Both the position numbers and the translations under genes were made by a program. A DNA stretch of 64,000 nucleotides from Chryseobacterium sp. 3008163 (lineage in GTDB: Bacteria; Bacteroidota; Bacteroidia; Flavobacteriales; Weeksellaceae), in contig NZ_CP033070.1 of NCBI RefSeq assembly GCF_003669035.1, positions 372,001-436,000 of the forward strand. The letters are read 5' to 3'. Of the stretch, positions 13,554 through 35,398 are shown in pieces (within the stretch, counting starts at the first letter, position 1; every line of letters starts with the position of its first letter). Under the pieces are notes generated by a model. The model searched no databases. It saw only the letters and a list, made by a program, of their open reading frames with translations, and had not been told where the DNA came from.

Positions 13554-15071
13554 ATGAGAAAGACATATTCTATAATCGTTAAAGTGATCACCTACTTTTT
13601 TATACTGCTTTTTTGCTATGCTGCAATCAGCAAAATACTGGATTTTGAAAACTTTCAGGTTCAGATTGGGCAGTCTCCTTTGTTAAGCGCTTATGCAGGA
13701 TTTATATCCTATGCAGTAATTATTGCAGAACTGCTCATCGTACTGATGCTGATTTTTCCAAAAACATTTCTCTGGGGATTATATTCATCAACTGCATTGA
13801 TGACAGCGTTTACGGTCTACATCTATTTAATTTTAAATCATAGTGATTTCGTACCCTGTGCATGCGGAGGGATCTTGGAAAAGATGGGATGGACAGAACA
13901 CCTGATTTTTAATATCAGTGCCGTAGTGCTGGGAATTGTAGCTGTCTTTTTATATACAAAGAAAGAATATCCACGTAAAACTGTTGTTCTATCACTCGTC
14001 ATTTCCAATATTCTAAGTGCTGTCTTTATTCTTTTCTTATTTTTAAGATCAGACTATGTGATTAAGCAGGAAAATAATTTTACACGAAGGTTTTTAATGC
14101 ATCCTGTTCTAAAAACAAAAAGTATTGCTCTCGAAAACAACACATACTATTTTGCAGGATCTGATAATCAAAAGGTATATCTTGGAAATAGGACAATGCC
14201 ACAAAATCTGTTAACTGTTGACTCAATGCTTCAAAAACGTCTCAATTTAAAAATGGATTTGGATCTTAAAAAATATCCATATAGAAAGATTGAGGTTAAA
14301 GTCTATGATAATAGTTATTTTATCTATGACGGTACAGTGCCTGTAATATCTAAAGGACAGCTAGGTCGTTCTGAAACGGAGGTCATCAGTTATAAGGATG
14401 CTTTTTTCAGCCAGATAGAAATTATCAACAGTAACAGAATGGCCATTAGAGCACTGTCATCAACAACTAAAAATCTGACACTTGGTATATTGAAGATTGG
14501 AAGCAATGGGAAAAATGAGGTGCAGTTATTTCCGCAACTTCTGGAAAAACAATCTGATGGGGTATTTGATTCGGACGGTTATCTTTCTTCAAATCCAAAA
14601 TCAGCTCAAGTGACTTACATCCATGCTTACCGTAATCAGTTTCTTGTGATGGATTCAACAATGAAACTTCAACGGAGATTATCAACCATTGATACAACAA
14701 CTATTGCACAAATACAGGTAACTCCCTTATCCGACGGAAGATTTAAAATGTCTAAGCCTGCGTTACATGTTAATGGCCATGCGAAAGTTTTCAGCGGACT
14801 TTTATTTAATCCCGCCTACTTAAGAGGCCAGCATGAACCCGTCAAAAGATGGAAGGAAAGCAGAACAATTGATGTTTACAATATCAATAAGCAGGAATAT
14901 ATCGGAAGTATTTACATTGATCATTACAAAGATTCAGAGATGTCAGATTTTACAGTTACCGATAAGCACTTGTACGTCATTGCAGGAAATCAGCTCATTC
15001 AGTACCGCCTGACAAATTCTCTGACAAAATATTTTAAAAACGGGGTAGCCGAAAACCGTATCCAAGAGTAG
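13554..15071 (+). CDS. MauE/DoxX-like membrane protein with C-terminal extracytoplasmic domain
   Basis: The 505-aa protein has four membrane helices in the first 145 residues plus one near 150-168. The motif PCACGGILEKMGWTEHLIFN (about 101-120) is the paired-cysteine signature of MauE-like proteins, which are linked to disulfide formation in periplasmic partners. The remaining 330 residues are soluble, strand-rich and repeat-like (e.g. KSIALENNTYYFAGS), possibly a propeller. It is followed 21 nt later by a cysteine-containing secreted DUF6520 peptide, a plausible redox client. Substrate and propeller fold are inference. Confidence 0.8.
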   Translation: MRKTYSIIVKVITYFFILLFCYAAISKILDFENFQVQIGQSPLLSAYAGFISYAVIIAELLIVLMLIFPKTFLWGLYSSTALMTAFTVYIYLILNHSDFVPCACGGILEKMGWTEHLIFNISAVVLGIVAVFLYTKKEYPRKTVVLSLVISNILSAVFILFLFLRSDYVIKQENNFTRRFLMHPVLKTKSIALENNTYYFAGSDNQKVYLGNRTMPQNLLTVDSMLQKRLNLKMDLDLKKYPYRKIEVKVYDNSYFIYDGTVPVISKGQLGRSETEVISYKDAFFSQIEIINSNRMAIRALSSTTKNLTLGILKIGSNGKNEVQLFPQLLEKQSDGVFDSDGYLSSNPKSAQVTYIHAYRNQFLVMDSTMKLQRRLSTIDTTTIAQIQVTPLSDGRFKMSKPALHVNGHAKVFSGLLFNPAYLRGQHEPVKRWKESRTIDVYNINKQEYIGSIYIDHYKDSEMSDFTVTDKHLYVIAGNQLIQYRLTNSLTKYFKNGVAENRIQE

Positions 15072-15092
15072 GCACAATCAAATTTCTTTATT

Positions 15093-24176: not shown

Positions 24177-24523
24177 GTTTATTTTTGATTAAATATAGTT
24201 ATAAAACCTGCAAATATTTCTTAAAACTTGAATTTTGCACAATAACCGGATTAGCAATTACAAAATTTCGCCACCATAAATAATTCTCGGCATTGTATTT
24301 ATGATCTTTTTCCCGGATATCCGGACTGCAAAAAGAATTAGGAAAAACATTCCATTATTACATTAACAAAAAAATTACTACTAAAAGCGATTTCCAATTT
24401 ACAGGATATTTAGAATATTTCGTACTTTAACAACATTAAAAACTATATCGCTGATTATCAATCATATAAATTATATTTTAAAATATTTACTGTAAATATA
24501 TTAACTGGTAGCAATTTTTTTTG
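24177..24523. other. Gene-free AT-rich spacer before the retron
   Basis: These 347 nt hold no convincing ORF on either strand. They should contain the promoter of the leftward 23257-24176 gene, but I see only a weak match (AATATTTG near 24210, minus). Confidence 0.4.
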
Positions 24524-24531
24524 TACATTTG
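24524..24531 (+). promoter_or_regulatory. Retron promoter -7 box
   Basis: TACATTTG fits TAnnTTTG, so the transcript should start near 24538, about 24 nt before the a1 repeat. The -33 position has no clear TTTG. Confidence 0.55.
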
Positions 24532-24537
24532 CAATGA

Positions 24538-24770
24538 GTTCTTTGATAAAACGTTTCTAAGATAACTGAATAGAGTTTATTTTTATTTAATGCTAAATTA
24601 AATACCTCCTCAAGAGGCTTTCAGGACAAACCTTCTAACCCCCTACAACTGTTAGAGATGTTAGATAATTGTTCGATTTGCTTTTCCCAGATTGTTGTGA
24701 GAAGCAGGATTTTAAAGGTAGTGCATAGAGAACATTGCTTACGTATTCAGTTATTAATATTTATTGTAAT
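24538..24770 (+). ncRNA. Retron non-coding RNA (msr-msd)
   Basis: Upstream of the reverse transcriptase an 11-nt perfect inverted repeat (ATAACTGAATA at 24562-24572, TATTCAGTTAT at 24744-24754) encloses about 171 nt, the a1/a2 layout of retron ncRNAs. A G follows a1 at 24573 and could be the branching guanosine. Inside are a short hairpin CCTC-CTCAA-GAGG (24605-24617, msr-like) and a 7-bp hairpin 24680-24705 (GCTTTTC/GAGAAGC, one G-T pair, msd-like). The RNA would be copied into covalently linked msDNA. End points are approximate. Confidence 0.7.
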
Positions 24771-24815
24771 AAGCAGGAGCAATAATGCCCAATAATAACT
24801 TAAAACAATATTTTT

Positions 24816-25040
24816 ATGTCAAGATTAAAAAGACTTAGAAACATTAATGGTCTAAACGAAGTTTTAGATACCATAATCAAAAACCAATGTTCTCTTTCGG
24901 AGATTGAGTTGAATCTATTAAATGAAGCGATAGCCAAATTAAATGGATTGAAAAGTAAAAAAGGTTTAACAAATAAACAATACTTGGTAGAGATATCAGA
25001 TATTATTAACCTAATAACGCTTTTTTTAACTAAATATTAA
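24816..25040 (+). CDS. Small retron-associated protein
   Basis: This 74-aa helical protein (MSRLKRLRNINGLNEVLDTI, ending ITLFLTKY) lies between the ncRNA and the XRE gene. I do not recognise a family. Its place in the retron transcript, 68 nt before the XRE start, suggests an effector or accessory role. Some HTH-type retrons carry an unknown small ORF of this kind. Confidence 0.6.
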   Translation: MSRLKRLRNINGLNEVLDTIIKNQCSLSEIELNLLNEAIAKLNGLKSKKGLTNKQYLVEISDIINLITLFLTKY

Positions 25041-25108
25041 ATTTATATATTATGGTTACAATTATTAACAATCAAAGACACTTCTTTAAATTTTTAAAAA
25101 AAATCATC

Positions 25109-25399
25109 ATGGATTTAGGTACTGCAATACGTAACTTTAGAAAACAAAAAGGGCAAACTCAAAACGAGTTTGCTGAATCTTGTGGAATCTCACAAACTTA
25201 TTTATCACAAATCGAAAACAACAGCAAGGATCCTAATTTATCAACCCTAAAAGAAATTAGTTTATCTTTAGATGTACCATTACCAATTTTATTTTTCCTT
25301 TCGCTTAGCAATGAAGATGTTAAGCCTGATAAAAGAGAGGCTTTTAATTTAGTAAGTCCTTCTATAAAATCGTTAGTGAATGAATTCTTCAGAAGCTAA
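25109..25399 (+). CDS. XRE-family HTH protein of the retron
   Basis: From ATG 25109 (MDLGTAIRNFRKQKGQTQNE) the protein is 96 aa with a canonical HTH_3 domain (FAESCGISQTYLSQIENNSK, residues about 20-39) and a short hydrophobic C-terminal helix. A longer frame starts at 25052 but adds only unconserved residues. The stop lies 20 nt inside the RT gene, so the two are coupled. In retron classification HTH proteins are associated components of one type. Here it may repress the operon or serve as the toxin. Confidence 0.8.
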   Translation: MDLGTAIRNFRKQKGQTQNEFAESCGISQTYLSQIENNSKDPNLSTLKEISLSLDVPLPILFFLSLSNEDVKPDKREAFNLVSPSIKSLVNEFFRS

Positions 25400-26234
25400 A
25401 AATAAATTATACTTCCCTTCGATTGTAGGTTTTTCTCTTGGTGATTTGCAAGAAATGATATCGTCTATCGACGATTTCTACAAAGAATGGGAAATAATTA
25501 AGAATGACAAAACGACAGGTCAACCCAAAACATATTTAGATGGTACGATAAAAAAGAGATTTATTCGTCCTTCTTTGAGACAATTAAATACCTTACAAAG
25601 CCGAATTAAATCAAGAATTCTTGAAAAAGTTCAATTACCAGAAAATATTCATGGAGGTATTAAAAAGAAAAGTAATATCACAAATGCCAAGGCACACCAA
25701 GGTAAGAAATATGTACTAGCGACTGATTTGCAGGAATTCTATCCGTCTGTAAAACCATTACTGATTAAAGAAACCTTTATAGAATTAGGTTTCAATCCTC
25801 AATTCGCTTTTTTTATCTCTAGATTTACAACTTGGAAAGGACAGTTACCTCAAGGTGCACCATCAAGTACACATATAGCGAATATTGTATTTTTAAAAAT
25901 CGATTTTTTGTTAATTGACTTTTGCAAAAGACATAATATTACGTATACTAGATATGTGGATGATTTAACATTTTCTTCTCAGCAAGATTTTCATTTTTTA
26001 ATCGATGAGATATTAGAATTAATTAAAAGCTCTGGATTTAGAATAAGTAGAAGAAAAACTAAATATGCTAAAAATCAAACAATTACTGGCATTAAAGTTT
26101 TCAATCATAAAATTGATGTTCCAGAAAAAATAATTCAAAAGATAAATGCAGAAAGTTTATTGCAAGATAATAGGCAAAAATATTTAACAAAATATCGGGA
26201 GCGAGTACTTAAAACTAATCTCCGTAAAAAATAA
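25380..26234 (+). CDS. Retron reverse transcriptase
   Basis: This 284-aa protein has the retron RT signatures: NAKAHQGKKY (the NAxxH motif), VLATDLQEFYPS (catalytic motif A), LPQGAPSSTHIAN (motif B), RYVDDLTFSS (YVDD catalytic core) and TITGIKV (VTG-like motif that contacts the msr). It reverse-transcribes its own ncRNA into msDNA, usually as part of an anti-phage toxin/antitoxin unit. It overlaps the XRE gene and ends in a 19-bp terminator. Group II intron maturase is excluded by the short length and absence of maturase/HNH domains. Confidence 0.92.
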   Translation: MNSSEAKNKLYFPSIVGFSLGDLQEMISSIDDFYKEWEIIKNDKTTGQPKTYLDGTIKKRFIRPSLRQLNTLQSRIKSRILEKVQLPENIHGGIKKKSNITNAKAHQGKKYVLATDLQEFYPSVKPLLIKETFIELGFNPQFAFFISRFTTWKGQLPQGAPSSTHIANIVFLKIDFLLIDFCKRHNITYTRYVDDLTFSSQQDFHFLIDEILELIKSSGFRISRRKTKYAKNQTITGIKVFNHKIDVPEKIIQKINAESLLQDNRQKYLTKYRERVLKTNLRKK

Positions 26235-26257
26235 TTTTACGGAGATTAGTTTTTTTA
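26211..26257 (+). terminator. Strong terminator after the retron
   Basis: A perfect 19-bp inverted repeat (26211-26229 with 26235-26253) around a 5-nt loop is followed by more T residues. It includes the RT stop codon and sets off the retron from abiH. Confidence 0.9.
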
Positions 26258-26276: not shown

Positions 26277-27403
26277 ATGAATAAACTTATAATTGTCGGA
26301 AATGGCTTTGATTTAGCACATGGTCTCAAAACGAAATATTCAGATTTAATCAATTTTTTTTGGGAGTCACTTTTATTAGAATGTGATAAACTTAATTCAA
26401 ACATGCATAAGAACAATACAACTATAGGTGATAAATTACCTATAGGGTTTTCAAATGAAGTTTACAGTGTTCAGATAAGTAATGTTTTTGCTTTGTCAGA
26501 AGATCATTATATCAACACCAAAATCAACAAAGGTTTAGAAAAAGCTTTGGAAGAAGTAAATGAAAATTTCATAGTAGATATCAAAAATTCATTATTTGAA
26601 TTTCTTCTAAAACAAATTGAAGTACAAAATTGGGTTGATATCGAAAATGAGTATTACGAATTTTTACTTGAACAGCTTAATTTTGAGAAGAAAAAAAAGG
26701 AAGTTCTGGTATTATTAAATTGAATTATGAATTAGATTTAATTAAAAATCTTTTAGCTAGTCATTTACGAACTGAACAATCAATGAAAATTGAAAAAATA
26801 GAATCTATTCATGAAAAAGTTATAACAAATAATGAATGGCAACCTGTTATATCTGTTGGAAGAAGACACTTTCCTATTTTAAGAACTTTAGTTGTTAATT
26901 TTAATTATACAAATACCTTTGAAAAGCTATATTTAAATAATTTGAGAGACTATAACAAGAAATTTTCTAATCGGTCAATGGAGCATATACATATTCATGG
27001 TGATATCAATGATTTGCAGAATAATCCTATGATATTTGGATATGGTGATGAGTTAGATAAAAATAGCAAAGATTTAGCTGAAATTAAAGGTTCTGAGTTT
27101 TTTAAAAATATAAAATCTTTAAATTATCAATCTACAAGTTACTATAAAAATATTCTAAAATTTATTGATGAAAATAAATTTGAAGTAATAATATTGGGGC
27201 ATTCTTGCGGGAACTCAGATAGGACTTTACTTAATACAATTTTTGAACATGAAAATTGTACTACTATACAGCCTTATTATCATAAATGGGAAGGTGGCGA
27301 TAATTATTTTGATATAGTCTGCAACATATATCGAAACTTCACAAAAAACGCCTCATTCAGAGAAAAAGTAGTAGAAAAAAATCTTTGTGAAACATTGACA
27401 TAA
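26277..27403 (+). pseudogene. abiH: AbiH-family abortive infection protein, frame broken by one base
   Basis: The first frame (26277-26723) starts MNKLIIVGNGFDLAHGLKTK with the AbiH nucleotide-binding-like motif and NWVDIENEYYEFL. The second (to 27403) carries VVNFNYTNTFEKLY, HIHGD and FEVIILGHSCGNSDRTLL, the C-terminal AbiH motifs. Adding one A to the 8-A run 26691-26698 joins them (KKGSSGIIKLNYELDLIK) into 375 aa, the family size. AbiH stops phage by an unknown mechanism. It starts only 23 nt after the retron terminator. If the break is real, it is inactive. Confidence 0.82.
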
Positions 27404-30028: not shown

Positions 30029-30501
30029 CTATTCTGACAGCTTGTGCATTTGATTTTGAGTGATATAATTGTTTAGTAAATGTGGATGCCATTCATTGTA
30101 GATTTGTATTGATTCGTCCACAATTTTTCTTCTTAATTTTGTTTCAATATCATATTCCTGCTTCAAAATTCCGTTTATTTTCGCAGCCACGCATTTTCGT
30201 AAGGATCCGAGTTCTGTGTCATACTGCATTTGACATGGTGCTTTTTCAAAATTCTCTTATATTCATTCGAACAGTATTGCAAACCTCTGTCTGAGTGATG
30301 TATTAGAGATTCTATACCGCGTTGATGATTCTTAAATACCTTCCTAAGTGCCTTTAACCTACTTTCCGTATTAACATTATTTGCAACACAATGCCCAAAG
30401 ATTTTCTTGGAATAAGCATCAGTGCTCAAACTTAAATAACTCTGATCCTTAATTTCAACTACAGGAAGTGGGGAGAAAGAGAGGTTGATTAGCAAACTCA
30501 A
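30029..30501 (-). mobile_element. IS3-family transposase remnant (3' part of orfB)
   Basis: Two minus frames form the end of an IS150-type integrase: YLSLSTDAYSKKIFGHCVAN, LIHHSDRGLQYCSNEY (second catalytic Asp), SDPYENA and INGILKQEYDIETKLRRK ending at 30029. The first Asp region and all of orfA are missing, so it is 5'-truncated. The two frames are joined by one extra G near 30188. No intact terminal inverted repeat is seen. It marks past insertion between hicAB and the DUF4236 gene. The rest of 30502-30605 is empty. Confidence 0.85.
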
Positions 30502-30605
30502 TGAAATAGGGGAAGAATAATTCTTGATAAGATTACGGTTTTCCGTAAATATTTCTGCCTGTAGTAGTTTAGATTTGTGACTACAATTATCTTAAAAACT
30601 ATATC

Positions 30606-31727
30606 ATGGCTTGGTCATACAGAAAGAGAATCAAAATAATTCCCAGTGTACATTTGAATTTCAGCAAAAGAGGAATTTCAACTAGTATTGGGGTTAAAGG
30701 TATGAGTTTAAATTTGAGTTCGTCAGGTACGAGACTTAATACCAATTTTTCAGGTTTTTCAAATTCATACAGGCTTTCAGGTTCTTCATCACCAAAGGCT
30801 CCCTCTCAATCTTATCCTGAACCACAACCATTTTACACTGAGTTATCAGATAACATTTTTAGTGCCGATGTTCATGAGATAACATCCCAAAATATGGCAG
30901 GTATCAAAGAATCTATCTTAATGGCTCAACAGCAAAAAGCGGAATTGAAGACGGATCTGAAGAAGATAAAAAAAACGCTAACCTTTACGAAAACCAAGAA
31001 AATTGCGAGTTATATCTTTATATATGGATTGGTAAACAAAAATATTGTTCAACAGATAAATGAAGATATTAGTGCACAAAAAGAAGCGCTTAAAGAAACC
31101 CAGATTGTAATTGATAACTCGGCTGTTAAGGTTGATATACAGTTCGATGATCCTTCTAAGAGAAAGTATGAACAATTACAGCATTGTTTTAAAAATCTAA
31201 CCACAGCGCATAAAATATGGGATATTACAGGAGCGCATTTTCAGGATCGTGTGGCTGCCCGATCTAGTGCCAGCACATTGGTCAACAGAAAAGATGCAAG
31301 AATTGGTTTTAAATCACTTCCCATCATCACATCAAACTATGAAGCAATATATTTTCAAAATGTGAACGGAGCAGATTTATATTTTTATCCAACATTTGTA
31401 CTGATGTATAAAAATGATCAGAGCTTTGCCATTATTGGGTTTGATGAACTTAATGTTACATTTTCTTCTGTAAGTTTTACCGAAACCAGCAGTGTTCCTC
31501 GTGATTCAAAAGTTATTAGAAAAACATGGGCGAAAGTCAATAAAAACGGAACTCCTGACAAAAGATTCAAGAGTAATTATCAGATACCAGTCGTTCAATA
31601 TGCAAGGCTGAGGTTTTCTTCCAGTAACGGTGTTAATGAGGAATATCAAATAAGTAATTTTGAGTTCGCCCAAGAGTTTGCAAATTCATTTCAGGAGTAT
31701 AAAAGTTTGTGCAAGGAATTAGCTTAA
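30606..31727 (+). CDS. DUF4236 domain protein
   Basis: The 373-aa protein starts MAWSYRKRIKIIPSVHLNFS and continues KRGISTSIGVKGMSLNLSSS, the DUF4236 domain (first 55 residues). A long helical middle (QQQKAELKTDLKKIKKTL, about 95-190) and a strand-rich C-terminal domain follow (YFYPTFVLMYKNDQSFAIIG). DUF4236 proteins are widespread on mobile elements and of unknown function. No signal peptide is present. It converges with topB and is 48 nt from it. Confidence 0.78.
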   Translation: MAWSYRKRIKIIPSVHLNFSKRGISTSIGVKGMSLNLSSSGTRLNTNFSGFSNSYRLSGSSSPKAPSQSYPEPQPFYTELSDNIFSADVHEITSQNMAGIKESILMAQQQKAELKTDLKKIKKTLTFTKTKKIASYIFIYGLVNKNIVQQINEDISAQKEALKETQIVIDNSAVKVDIQFDDPSKRKYEQLQHCFKNLTTAHKIWDITGAHFQDRVAARSSASTLVNRKDARIGFKSLPIITSNYEAIYFQNVNGADLYFYPTFVLMYKNDQSFAIIGFDELNVTFSSVSFTETSSVPRDSKVIRKTWAKVNKNGTPDKRFKSNYQIPVVQYARLRFSSSNGVNEEYQISNFEFAQEFANSFQEYKSLCKELA

Positions 31728-31774
31728 AATCGATTTCAGAAAGCAATAAGATTGAAAATCTTATCTTTAATAAT

Positions 31775-33889
31775 CTAAGAAAATTTAAAAATCAAATTTA
31801 CTTTATCATCTAAAGTTAAATAAGCATCAAACTTTTTACCGTTTTTGCTTTTCATGTTTTTGATTAATGATGTTTTGTTTTGAGTTAATAGTAAAGTAAG
31901 ATCTTTAATACTGAGTTGTACTCCGCATATAGTTCTGAAGAGAATCCAGTTGCACTGCTCATCGGGACATTTTACGATTTTATCTTTGATAATAAGATGA
32001 TGCTGTTGGCATTTGGGGCATTTGAGTTCGGGAATATTTTCTTGAGGAATATGAAGTGATAAAAGTTCATTGGTGATTTCCACTGTGTAGTGTTGGATGT
32101 CGTTGATGAATTGTTTTGAGCTGAGCTCGCCTTTTTCGATCTTGTCCAATGCCATCTCCCACTCTGCGGTCATTTGTACGTTGGCGATCTTTTGCTCTTT
32201 GACAAGGTGATAAACTTTCAGTCCTTTTTCAGTTGGTACTAGAGCCTTGCTTTTTCGGTTGATGTAGTTTCTGCTGAGCAGGGTTTCAATGATGGAAGCT
32301 CTGGTGGCTGGTGTACCGATACCAATATTTGAAATGGCTTTCTGTGCTTCTTTATCTTCGATCGATCTTCCTGCATTTTCCATCGCCGACAACAGATCTG
32401 CTTCACTGTATAATTTAGGAGGCTGGGTGGTCTTTTCCTGTAGTTCCGTTTGGGAGATTTTCAGTTCATCCCCGATCTTCATTTCTGGGAGGTCAATAAG
32501 TGTTTCTTCAACATTATGGTTATTGGAAGTGCTGTCGTTATTTTTGTTATTATCGTTATGTTCTGAGAGTATCCCTTTGATGGCTCGCCAGCCTTTGGTT
32601 AGTATTTTTGATCCTTTGATGTTGAATTCATAGTGGTGTACTTTGAGTGTAATGTGGCTGACCTGTTTGCTGCAATGTTCTGACAAGGATTCCAGTAAAC
32701 GGTAGGCGATCATATCGTAAATGGCCTTTTCAGTTGCTGTCAATGCAGATGGTATTTTTGTTGTGATCAGTAATCCGTGATGATCAGTTACTTTCAGATC
32801 ATTGACTATCCGCTTGTTGAAGTTGCCGAATTTGAGTGTTGAAATGGCGGGTTTGAATTGATCGACCGTATTGAGGATTCTAACCAGTTCCGGGATCTCT
32901 GCCCAGAGGTCTTCGGGTATATATTTACTGCCGGTTCTTGGATACGTGATGAATCTCTTTTCATAAAGTGCCTGTGCCGTCTGCAAAACCTCATCGGCTG
33001 ACAGCCCCAGTTTTCTATTGGCTTCCTTCTGAAGTTCGGTCAGGTCAAAAAGTAAGGGAGATGGTTCTTTTACAGTTTGGATTGAGACATTCTCAACAGT
33101 GGCCCTGCCCTCTCTTTCTATGGATCTTAGGATCTGCTCTGCCTGTTTTTTGTCTTCCCATTGTTCAGTTGACCGGCTCGTGAAATCCAGATATTCTTTA
33201 CGGTGCTTCAACTGGATCTGCCAGTATTTTTTCTGCGTGAAATTGTGATGGTCTTCAAATCTTTTGCAGATCAAAGCCAATGTCGGGGTCTGTACCCTAC
33301 CTAATGAATAGACATCCTGGTTGGCGGCAATGCTTAATGCCTGAGTCGCATTGATCCCGACCAGCCAGTCGGCTTCGCTTCTGGACTTTGCAGCCTGATA
33401 CAAACCTTCGAACGCTGAACCCGGCTGAAGCTTTTTGAAACCGCCTTGTATGGCTTTTTCAGTAAGGGAACTGATCCACAATCGTTCAAATGGTTTGGTG
33501 CATTTGAGATAGTCGTAGATATATCGGAAGATGAGCTCTCCTTCCCTTCCTGCATCGGTGGCTACAATGATGCTGTCGCATCTGTCGATGACGTTTCTTA
33601 TTGTTTTTAATTGTTTGAGGGCGGAAGGATCAGGCTGATAGCCTTTGTGGTTTTGCTTTTTGATAGGTCTTGGGATCAATAAGAACGGATCTGGAAAGAT
33701 AGGCAAAGAGGCTTTGTCAAAGCCTCTTATACCATGATCTTCCGGCATTCCCAAAGACACCAAATGGCCTAATGCCCAGGTTATGCAGTAACCGTTGCCC
33801 TCCAGGTAACCGTCTTTTCTTTGGTTGGCATTTAACAATTGGGCGATCTCTCTTGCAACACTGGGCTTTTCTGCGATGATGGCTTTCAT
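31775..33889 (-). CDS. topB: Type IA DNA topoisomerase III
   Basis: The intact 704-aa enzyme starts MKAIIAEKPSVAREIAQLLN, with TOPRIM residues Glu7 and DAGREGE (112-118), the active-site region RFITYPRTGSKYI (Tyr316) and a C-terminal zinc ribbon (CPKCQQHHLII, CPDEQCNWIL). Topoisomerase III decatenates DNA. The CTnDOT excision locus carries a TopB-like protein (Exc) beside the same companions. It lies 57 nt after the DUF3945 gene in a leftward block. Confidence 0.93.
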   Translation of the reverse strand: MKAIIAEKPSVAREIAQLLNANQRKDGYLEGNGYCITWALGHLVSLGMPEDHGIRGFDKASLPIFPDPFLLIPRPIKKQNHKGYQPDPSALKQLKTIRNVIDRCDSIIVATDAGREGELIFRYIYDYLKCTKPFERLWISSLTEKAIQGGFKKLQPGSAFEGLYQAAKSRSEADWLVGINATQALSIAANQDVYSLGRVQTPTLALICKRFEDHHNFTQKKYWQIQLKHRKEYLDFTSRSTEQWEDKKQAEQILRSIEREGRATVENVSIQTVKEPSPLLFDLTELQKEANRKLGLSADEVLQTAQALYEKRFITYPRTGSKYIPEDLWAEIPELVRILNTVDQFKPAISTLKFGNFNKRIVNDLKVTDHHGLLITTKIPSALTATEKAIYDMIAYRLLESLSEHCSKQVSHITLKVHHYEFNIKGSKILTKGWRAIKGILSEHNDNNKNNDSTSNNHNVEETLIDLPEMKIGDELKISQTELQEKTTQPPKLYSEADLLSAMENAGRSIEDKEAQKAISNIGIGTPATRASIIETLLSRNYINRKSKALVPTEKGLKVYHLVKEQKIANVQMTAEWEMALDKIEKGELSSKQFINDIQHYTVEITNELLSLHIPQENIPELKCPKCQQHHLIIKDKIVKCPDEQCNWILFRTICGVQLSIKDLTLLLTQNKTSLIKNMKSKNGKKFDAYLTLDDKVNLIFKFS

Positions 33890-33946
33890 AGGATTGGATT
33901 TATTGTGATTAGAATTGTTTTTGTGATTGTAATTGTAAGTCTTGGA

Positions 33947-35398
33947 TTACATCTTGCGCCCTTTGGATCTGACCGGTTTCTTTTGCTGGACTTCCTGCTG
34001 TTTGTTGGCAGGTTGCTGCTGTTTGGACTCTAAAGGTTCTTTGAGATTCTTGGTGGCTTCATTGGTCTTGCCATCGGAATTGACTGCCTTTTGAGTCTTG
34101 TGGTCCTCTGATGGTTGGGCTTTTTCCTTCAGCTTGTTGGGGTTGGTAAAGGAAAATTCCGTTTTGGACGTTTCCTTATCGAAGGTGATGTAGCCTTGAT
34201 AGGCTTTTCCTTTGCCGTCCACCAATCCGTCAACATACACCGTCTGCCCTGCTTTGAACTTTTCATATTGTGCAACATCAAGCTCCTTACCTCGGAATAC
34301 TTTCGGGGCTTCCCCGGCTTTGGATTGATTTTGCTGACTGGATGGGTTCTGCTGTTGTGATTGTTGCTGGTTCTGGTTGTTGTTGAAGATGAATTCGACA
34401 TAGCGCTTGTCTGCATTGAACTGAACGGTTGCTTCAAACAATTCTCCTTTTTTGGAGGTCATCCCTTCAAGATAAAGAGGCTTGCCTTCCAGCAATGTTT
34501 GTTTTTGATGGTCATCCAGCTTGATGCTCTTGATCTCATCCGGGATCTTCATATATTCTGCTCTGTAGGCGACCAGCTCGTTGGTCAGCCGGTCTCGGCT
34601 GATCACGGAAGGAATGATCTCATCGGTCTTGGGATTGACGAGGTCCACGACCCTGCCCATATTTCCGCTTTCTTTAAGATTTTTCTTGTCCTCATCGGTG
34701 AACTCGTGACCGAGGAACTTGAGGTTGTAGTTGGGCTCTTTGCGGATGCCGTGCAGATTCACGGCAACCTCTCCGTTGTCTGCGGTCTGGAGTGATAGAC
34801 GGACATCCATCTTGCTGACCGCTGTTCCCAGATTGATGGTAATGGGAATTAAATTATTGGTTTTGAAGCCTCTAAGCAGAGGATCCATAGCATTTAGCTT
34901 TTCAAGCTTTTCCTGGTTAAGCCCGAATTTTTCCATGGTTTTCCAGTCGATCTGTTCAGGCTGGAAACGGTATTCCTGAGTTTCTGTGTTGTTTTCCATT
35001 GTATTCTGATTTTTTAATGGGTTTGTATTTTTTGGTAAGAGTTCATATTCCTTAAGCTTTTCCTTTTCTTCAGGGGATGCCTGATCGACATACTGCTGAA
35101 GGTCTTTTGCTGTATTGACCGCATCGTATTCCGAGACCTTGAAGAAATTGAAATGCGAGGGGTTTTTAAGCTGCCTGTAGAAATTAGAAAAGAAGTTGGA
35201 GAACAGGTCGCCGTGCTTGTCAACCCGGATCAACTGGTCGTTGTCTTTCTTTTCATCAGGTGATAACTTTTGAAGATTTCCATCTTTGTCAACCCCTTTG
35301 ACCATCTCAATTTGATTGGTATTGATATTCAGGACAAGCAGTGTATCTGAAATTGGCTTGATCTGATTCGTTTTATTTTGTGCTATGTCTTCCATCAC
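33947..35398 (-). CDS. DUF4099/DUF3945 conjugative-element protein
   Basis: The 483-aa protein has an N-terminal region (DTLLVLNINTNQIEMVKGVD), a central DUF4099-like part (IDWKTMEKFGLNQEKLEKL) and two DUF3945-like repeats (YLEGMTSKKGELFEATVQFN, and YVDGLVDGKGKAYQGYITFD), with Gln-rich linkers and a basic end (KKPVRSKGRKM). Such proteins accompany topB in Bacteroidetes ICEs and have no known function. The gene overlaps nothing. A stop-free start codon pair MM is at 35398. Confidence 0.85.
   Translation of the reverse strand: MMEDIAQNKTNQIKPISDTLLVLNINTNQIEMVKGVDKDGNLQKLSPDEKKDNDQLIRVDKHGDLFSNFFSNFYRQLKNPSHFNFFKVSEYDAVNTAKDLQQYVDQASPEEKEKLKEYELLPKNTNPLKNQNTMENNTETQEYRFQPEQIDWKTMEKFGLNQEKLEKLNAMDPLLRGFKTNNLIPITINLGTAVSKMDVRLSLQTADNGEVAVNLHGIRKEPNYNLKFLGHEFTDEDKKNLKESGNMGRVVDLVNPKTDEIIPSVISRDRLTNELVAYRAEYMKIPDEIKSIKLDDHQKQTLLEGKPLYLEGMTSKKGELFEATVQFNADKRYVEFIFNNNQNQQQSQQQNPSSQQNQSKAGEAPKVFRGKELDVAQYEKFKAGQTVYVDGLVDGKGKAYQGYITFDKETSKTEFSFTNPNKLKEKAQPSEDHKTQKAVNSDGKTNEATKNLKEPLESKQQQPANKQQEVQQKKPVRSKGRKM

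Follow-up and report, generated by a model that had tools for sequence, protein, structure and literature searches.

The window analysed here is a 64,000-nucleotide (nt) stretch of the genome of Chryseobacterium sp. 3008163, which is a single contig of 4.56 Mb (window at G000:C1:372001-436000), and the element in question is a retron at positions 24524-26257 of that window, in which a noncoding RNA (ncRNA) is followed by genes for a small protein (SP), an XRE-family protein with a helix-turn-helix (HTH) and a reverse transcriptase (RT). A preliminary description had proposed a complete retron at this place, and every element that it listed is present at the coordinates it gave: a -7-like promoter at the 5' edge of the unit, a perfect 11-nt a1/a2 repeat enclosing 171 nt, a G directly after a1, two further small genes of 74 and 96 amino acids (aa), an RT with retron motifs and a 19-base-pair (bp) terminator. 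The features of the locus are as follows:

24524..24531, plus strand: Bacteroidota -7-like promoter element TACATTTG (from the sequence)
24538..24546, plus strand: boxA-like motif GTTCTTTGA, expected 5' end of the transcript (from counts of GTTC[TA][TC]TGA in type VI loci and of G[AT]TC[AT]TTGA in 16S leaders)
24562..24572, plus strand: a1 arm (inverted-repeat search; covariation)
24573, plus strand: candidate branching G, the alternative being the invariant G at 24575 (sequence; alignment)
24584..24604, plus strand: msr hairpin 1 (inverted repeat; fold)
24605..24617, plus strand: msr hairpin 2, CCTC/GAGG (two of its four pairs with both-sided changes in relatives)
24680..24707, plus strand: msd-side hairpin, limits approximate (single-sequence fold)
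24702..24709, plus strand: direct repeat copy 1, AAGCAGGA (repeat comparison across loci)
24744..24754, plus strand: a2 arm, 100% complementary to a1 (inverted repeat; covariation)
24749..24756, plus strand: 5' strand of the alternative helix a2:a3, AGTTATTA, overlapping a2 (own-versus-cross pairing test)
24771..24778, plus strand: direct repeat copy 2, AAGCAGGA (repeat comparison across loci)
24779..24788, plus strand: small GCA/TGC hairpin between a2 and the SP gene (3 pairs, 96.3% of cells paired)
24793..24800, plus strand: a3 arm, TAATAACT, ending 15 nt 5' of the SP start codon (complementarity to the a2 region)
24816..25040, plus strand: SP_VI small protein, 74 aa, with a hydrophobic C-terminal segment, probable effector (PADLOC SP_VI 1.1e-23; hydropathy)
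25109..25399, plus strand: HTH_VI, XRE-family protein, 96 aa from the ATG at 25109; the longest open reading frame (ORF), from 25052, has 115 aa (PADLOC HTH_VI 2.5e-30; Pfam HTH_3 6.6e-15)
25380..26234, plus strand: retron reverse transcriptase, 284 aa (PADLOC RT_VI 1.6e-71; Pfam RVT_1 1.5e-16)
26211..26253, plus strand: intrinsic-terminator-like hairpin of 19 bp overlapping the end of the RT gene, arms 26211-26229 and 26235-26253, 19 nt each and 100% complementary (arm complementarity)

Profile matches identify the locus almost certainly as a type VI retron in a Chryseobacterium-group genome. RT_VI is the best of 62 PADLOC families for the RT, the XRE protein matches HTH_VI, and residues 1-71 of the 74-aa protein align with positions 1-67 of the 68-position SP_VI profile. 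Pfam and NCBIfam contain no model that the small protein matches above cut-off, which accounts for its unrecognised appearance; the three PADLOC matches rule out the suggested new subtype with an unknown protein. The type VI class is reportedly due to Mestre et al. 2020, and the locus itself adds one more member to it with a gene set that is already known: the ncRNA is followed by the same three proteins, arranged SP-HTH-RT, with no difference from the class.

Retron RTs are recognised by motifs named NAxxH, YxDD and VTG-like, which in the window read NAKAH, YVDD and ITG, the last in place of VTG. Across ten aligned RTs, N102, A103, H106, D194, D195 and T236 are invariant and G237 is nearly so. 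The genome contains no second RT of this kind at E <= 0.001, and the closest solved relative by profile is the RT of the Ec86 retron (7v9u, 4.6e-43), with a similarity confined to RT residues 52-258; Ec86 differs in its effector, described in the available part of PMC12948488 as a ribosyltransferase in a filament.

In a quick tree of 74 retron-type RTs, 28, including that of the window, fall in one clade with a support of 94 in the Shimodaira-Hasegawa-like approximate likelihood-ratio test (SH-aLRT); these are the type VI loci considered below. Left out of the tree and the counts are L001, L002, L014 (the window itself), L040 (same contig as L008) and the repeats L042 (of L010), L045 (of L022) and L125-L127 (of L004, L003 and L007), while two short RT rows, L003 (198 aa) and L052 (125 aa), shortened by start choice or frame, are retained in the tree. 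Close relatives with the SP-HTH-RT order in the genus are L039 (68% RT identity), L008 (Chryseobacterium antibioticum RP-3-3, 66%) and L041 (61%), and the order recurs in L004, L003, L015, L017, L007 and L058, a Riemerella plasmid. Five members that branch deeply or lack the HTH protein (L010, L011, L018, L021 and L059) were checked, and RT_VI is the best PADLOC model for each of them; an HTH protein was found in 23 of the 28, those without it being L010, L011, L016, L059 and L123. The sister of the clade consists of three RTs from viral contigs, L144, L145 and L146, two of them identical (SH-aLRT 98), and in L146 an XRE-like ORF lies directly upstream of the RT. These three are among four distantly related RTs that one pattern-based scan of viral contigs yielded; the scan turned up nothing of type VI.

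Most of the leaders of these loci share a boxA-like motif, a short sequence similar to the signal that sustains transcription of ribosomal RNA. Within 1500 nt upstream of the RT, or in as much sequence as was available, GTTC[TA][TC]TGA occurs at 26 of the 28 type VI loci versus 3 of 66 other retron RTs, and the exact GTTCTTTGA is found at 25 of the 28. Control counts were low, at 1/28 and 0/66 for the reversed motif and 2/28 and 1/66 for the reverse complement, and a looser form, G[AT]TC[AT]TT[GA]A, is present at 25/28 type VI loci and 5/66 others. The motif lies 266-505 nt 5' of the SP start codon, and in 21 of the 26 loci TAnnTT[TC]G, a -7-like promoter type of Bacteroidota, precedes it by 5-12 nt. 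The two type VI loci that miss it are L011, with a one-mismatch copy in place, and L058, in which the 5' half of the ncRNA is gone; at this plasmid locus an IS30-family transposase and floR are found upstream. GTTC[TA][TC]TGA is absent from the three sister RTs L144, L145 and L146, of which L146 fits the looser pattern.

The motif is not exclusive to type VI, as a first count of 26/28 versus 0/46 had suggested. A retron-independent pattern search matched beside two other RTs, and 20 further RT hits (16 of the 17 previously without a locus, plus four others) were therefore examined, giving the 3/66 above. L161, L162, L175 and L176, which came from the pattern search, are excluded from the 66, and several of the 66 have upstream stretches so short (127 nt in L201, 406 nt in L139, 702 nt in L203) that misses there say little. 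The three carriers outside type VI, L192, L195 and L199, look like one lineage and have the same 9-mer about 260-278 nt before the RT, as do L162 and L176. RTs of this second lineage are about 400-430 aa long, and the two that were classified, L195 and L194, match RT-Protease_XI best. The motif stands near the promoter in this lineage and, by eye, runs into the a1 arm; L194, likely kin of L195, has GTTCTTTAA, and L197 shows none.

Since nearly all members of the type VI RT clade have the motif and few other RTs do, it could also be an ncRNA sequence recognised by the type VI RT, and no boxA at all. We consider this unlikely, since L192, L195 and L199 share the 9-mer outside type VI and its presence in so distant an RT lineage argues against recognition by the RT; moreover, in the window the RNA closed by a1/a2 does not include the motif, which is identical with the 16S leader motif of the phylum. 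Among 30 Bacteroidota 16S leader loci (four with less than 130 nt upstream, five from the window's genome and some others repeating a genome), G[AT]TC[AT]TTGA occurs in 20, at 82-146 nt before the 16S gene in 18 of these, while the reversed control occurs in none; the exact GTTCTTTGA is present in 12 of the 30. From these comparisons we regard GTTCTTTGA as probably a working boxA, identical to the rRNA-leader motif of the phylum and not to that of its own genome.

Several observations weigh against this assignment. The five 16S leaders of the window's genome, which are among the 20, read GATCATTGAAAA, two mismatches from GTTCTTTGAAAA, and the class motif is missing from six of the 26 leader loci with more than 400 nt upstream. 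Nor is the motif after a TTTG peculiar to retrons: TTTG-N4-14-AGTTCTTTGAAA matches 49 of 247 genomes, with a retron-type RT at 4 of 30 fetched loci. A similar pattern is matched 11 times in the genome of the window, twice at the retron's site, versus 7 times for its reversed form, and these counts lend no support to the idea that the boxA is a promoter element in general use in this genome. A first-guess motif, AGTTCTTTGANNNNNTTG, was likewise set aside, having 29 matches versus 21 reversed with one mismatch allowed.

Two other explanations of the motif concern its partners within the locus. XRE proteins usually autoregulate, and with an XRE gene in 23 of the 28 loci, GTTCTTTGA or a palindromic GGCAATATTGCC element before the SP gene might be the operator of the XRE protein. 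That the HTH-less members L010, L016, L059 and L123 retain the boxA-like motif argues against such an operator, as does, by eye, a GGCAATATTGCC-type hairpin before the SP gene that L010 and L059 retain, and we judge it very unlikely. Alternatively, GTTCTTTGA might pair with a GAGAAC loop upstream of a2 as a pseudoknot instead of serving as a protein site: GUUCUU is complementary to GAGAAC, and GAACAT is invariant in nine aligned sequences. Divergent members such as L009 and L012, however, have GTTCTTTGA and, by eye, no GAGAAC before a2, and a pseudoknot appears highly improbable.

A boxA at this place would have partial precedents. The accessible portion of PMC5725501 gives the gamma-proteobacterial boxA consensus as GYTCTTTAANA and reports that in Citrobacter koseri a boxA precedes a gene of a toxin-antitoxin pair, coding for a ParE-type toxin; this case belongs to another phylum, involves no retron and has the boxA at most 50 bp from the gene. 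In the part of PMC7862264 consulted, boxA elements are reported upstream of CRISPR arrays, where they likewise precede a long untranslated RNA, and boxA constructs in Legionella gave on average about 10-fold more pre-crRNA. The present motif differs from the rRNA and CRISPR cases in standing ahead of a retron ncRNA and a protein operon, and from the rRNA copies of its own genome at two positions. We found no paper joining "retron" and "boxA", which does not prove absence from print, and the matches listed for "retron" with "antitermination" contained, by their titles and the starts of their abstracts, nothing on retron leaders.

The ncRNA that follows the motif folds unimpressively as a single sequence (z -1.62, its stability being equalled or exceeded by 12 of 200 shuffles), and Rfam gives no retron match at the gathering score over the window, nor at E <= 5 over 24450-24850. 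We nonetheless take its closure to be real, because a1 and a2 are kept by compensatory change in relatives. RNAalifold, applied to an alignment of the window with eight relatives, recovers a1:a2 with compensatory changes; the arms and two short hairpins are paired in 93.7% of cells versus 80.7% in shuffles and 24.8-41.4% in slid controls, and both-sided changes number 20 cells versus 7.3 in shuffles, although the tested structure was derived from the same nine sequences, which favours these pairing counts. The covariation score is 0.516 versus 0.272 in shuffles, none of 500 being as high, while the count of further pair types is unremarkable (18 versus 15.6, reached by 51 of 500 shuffles).

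Across 26 loci, the arms of a locus form stems with each other that score 11.13, versus 7.64 for arms taken from different loci, a difference reached by none of 20,000 permutations. A duplex-energy test likewise gave 0/20,000; it tolerates long loops, and the stem test is the stricter. L058 and L011 were left out of both tests and of the overlap count below for want of an anchor, and ten doubtful stems of 5-10 bp, for which at least 6 of 50 cross pairings were as good (L039, L003, L007, L009, L013, L018, L019, L021, L059 and L123), were kept in the mean. A point against these tests, and against the permutation test of the third arm below, is that the permutations treat loci as independent, though some are close kin. 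Relatives thus conserve a1/a2 at this position, the absence of which the preliminary description had named as evidence against a retron. Its branching G is less definite: the base after a1 is A in two of the nine aligned sequences (L003 and L007) and the G at 24575 is invariant, so that the branch point could be either 24573 or 24575.

A third arm, a3, is complementary to the a2 region. With a3 taken as the stretch 42-5 nt and a2 as the region 95-45 nt before the SP start codon, pairing within a locus scores 9.60 versus 7.06 across loci (28 loci; 0 of 20,000 permutations), the result is again 0 of the permutations with 24 non-redundant loci, and mononucleotide-shuffled a3 stretches average 6.91 with a maximum of 7.68. 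In 13 of 26 loci a2:a3 and a1:a2 have nucleotides in common (7 nt in the window, 1 nt in L012), so that at these loci the two helices cannot both form fully. This mutual exclusion could make a2:a3 a regulatory switch, a reading that the pairing data make possible and that we hold tentatively. It is opposed by the energetics of the window, where a1:a2 is better by 4.0 kcal/mol (-55.3 versus -51.3) and a2:a3 has a probability of 0.00 in the free fold. The complementarity may instead reflect a hairpin for 3' processing or stability without any switch, which is conceivable to a similar degree: a1:a2 dominates the free fold in the window and in most overlapping loci, and the helices do not overlap in 13 of the 26, but in the other 13 their sharing of nucleotides, which makes them mutually exclusive in full, speaks against a simple hairpin.

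The leader also contains a direct repeat. Among the repeats in the 150 nt preceding the SP gene it is the longest in 24 of the 28 loci, the first copy lying 98-131 nt and the second 26-63 nt ahead of the SP start; in L011, L018, L021 and L060 another repeat is longest. Locus by locus the repeat is weak, since 23 of 100 shuffles reach its length in the window and at least 9 of 100 do so in 17 of the 28 loci, and in L019 it measures 6 nt. The case for it lies in its constant position and in parallel changes of both copies, which read GCAGG, GCAAGG (L007), GGCGGGC (L012/L013), TAGGCACGTG (L059/L123), TAACAGG (L010) and GGGACAGG (L016). The boxA-like leader, the a3 arm and the repeat recur across the type VI loci compared and thus characterise the class rather than this locus.

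Retrons typically combine an RT, an ncRNA with its multicopy single-stranded DNA (msDNA) and a toxic effector that is restrained until the cell is infected, according to the portions available of PMC12548924 and PMC12948488. For the effector we consider SP the likely candidate on comparative grounds, because an ORF stands in its position in 28 of 28 loci and the HTH protein is found in 23. An iterated SP profile matches 24 of the 28 at E < 0.01, the other four having an ORF of 70-76 aa in the same place, and an NRCSLS-like stretch is common to the 17 SPs aligned. The C-terminal segment is hydrophobic or amphipathic in the 28 scored, which suggests action at the membrane; this is quite possible, though the hydropathy is borderline, the maximum over 15 C-terminal residues being 1.88 in the window and 0.72-2.56 over the 28 loci, with low values (0.72-1.03) in L003, L060, L039 and L008 that count against it. 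Diverged small proteins occupy the SP position in the HTH-less L010, L016, L059 and L123 (not in L011), and those of L010, L059 and L123 are strongly cationic, at net +13 to +15.

SP could alternatively be an antitoxin or structural partner, with killing left to HTH, RT and msDNA together or to another gene. Its tiny size and its net charge, +4 in the window and anywhere from -6 to +15 over the 28 loci, would fit such a role, and the gene comparison extended downstream as far as the RT. We find it somewhat unlikely, given the usual composition of retrons (RT, ncRNA and toxic effector, in the same part of PMC12548924) and an SP-position ORF that is more constant (28/28, 24 by profile) than the HTH protein (23).

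Taking SP as the effector and GTTCTTTGA as a boxA, we lean slightly towards an anti-phage retron in which Nus antitermination accompanies transcription of the untranslated leader and the RNA may alternate between two uses, as template for msDNA and as messenger for SP. The primary transcript would start a few nucleotides 5' of the boxA-like motif, on which NusB/S10 would load and carry RNA polymerase through some 280 nt of untranslated, structured leader that might otherwise invite Rho; a boxA would thereby allow a long untranslated leader to precede a protein operon without Rho-dependent loss. With a1:a2 closed, the RNA would be a substrate of the RT and msDNA would be made; with a2:a3 closed instead, it would be the leader of the SP messenger, the a3 arm thus offering a possible way to split transcripts between the two uses. 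RT, msDNA and the XRE protein would keep SP inactive or its gene repressed until a phage disturbs the complex, whereupon SP would act on the cell, most likely at the membrane, and growth would stop.

The interest of these observations lies in the leader rather than in the locus. An rRNA-type boxA in most of the type VI retrons compared would tie retron immunity to Nus antitermination, in parallel with what is reported for CRISPR arrays (PMC7862264, in the part consulted), and the covarying a2:a3 helix gives an idea of how one transcript could serve both roles. A more general proposal, speculative and unlikely to hold as a whole, is that antitermination controls type VI retrons together with one further retron lineage, with a ribosomal boxA at the transcript start driving the polymerase through the ncRNA and an a1-a2-a3 switch dividing the transcripts between msDNA template and effector messenger. 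If this is true, a phage that seizes or disturbs Nus factors or Rho would directly shift the balance between SP and msDNA, and the retron would thereby sense phage attack on the transcription machinery of the host. Where type VI retrons are used as tools, a shortened leader could lack the boxA-like motif as well as the a2:a3 helix.

The surroundings of the retron were also inspected. Directly after it, on the plus strand, an AbiH-like protein (Pfam PF14253) is split over two frames, 26277-26723 and 26720-27403, and is probably a broken second defence gene. Positions 30175-35398 of the window contain an integrase-core fragment, a topoisomerase gene and a DUF3945/DUF4099 protein, a region near the retron that looks like the remains of a mobile element. 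Farther away, at 15039-15074, the Rfam model DUF805b matches the window above its gathering score.

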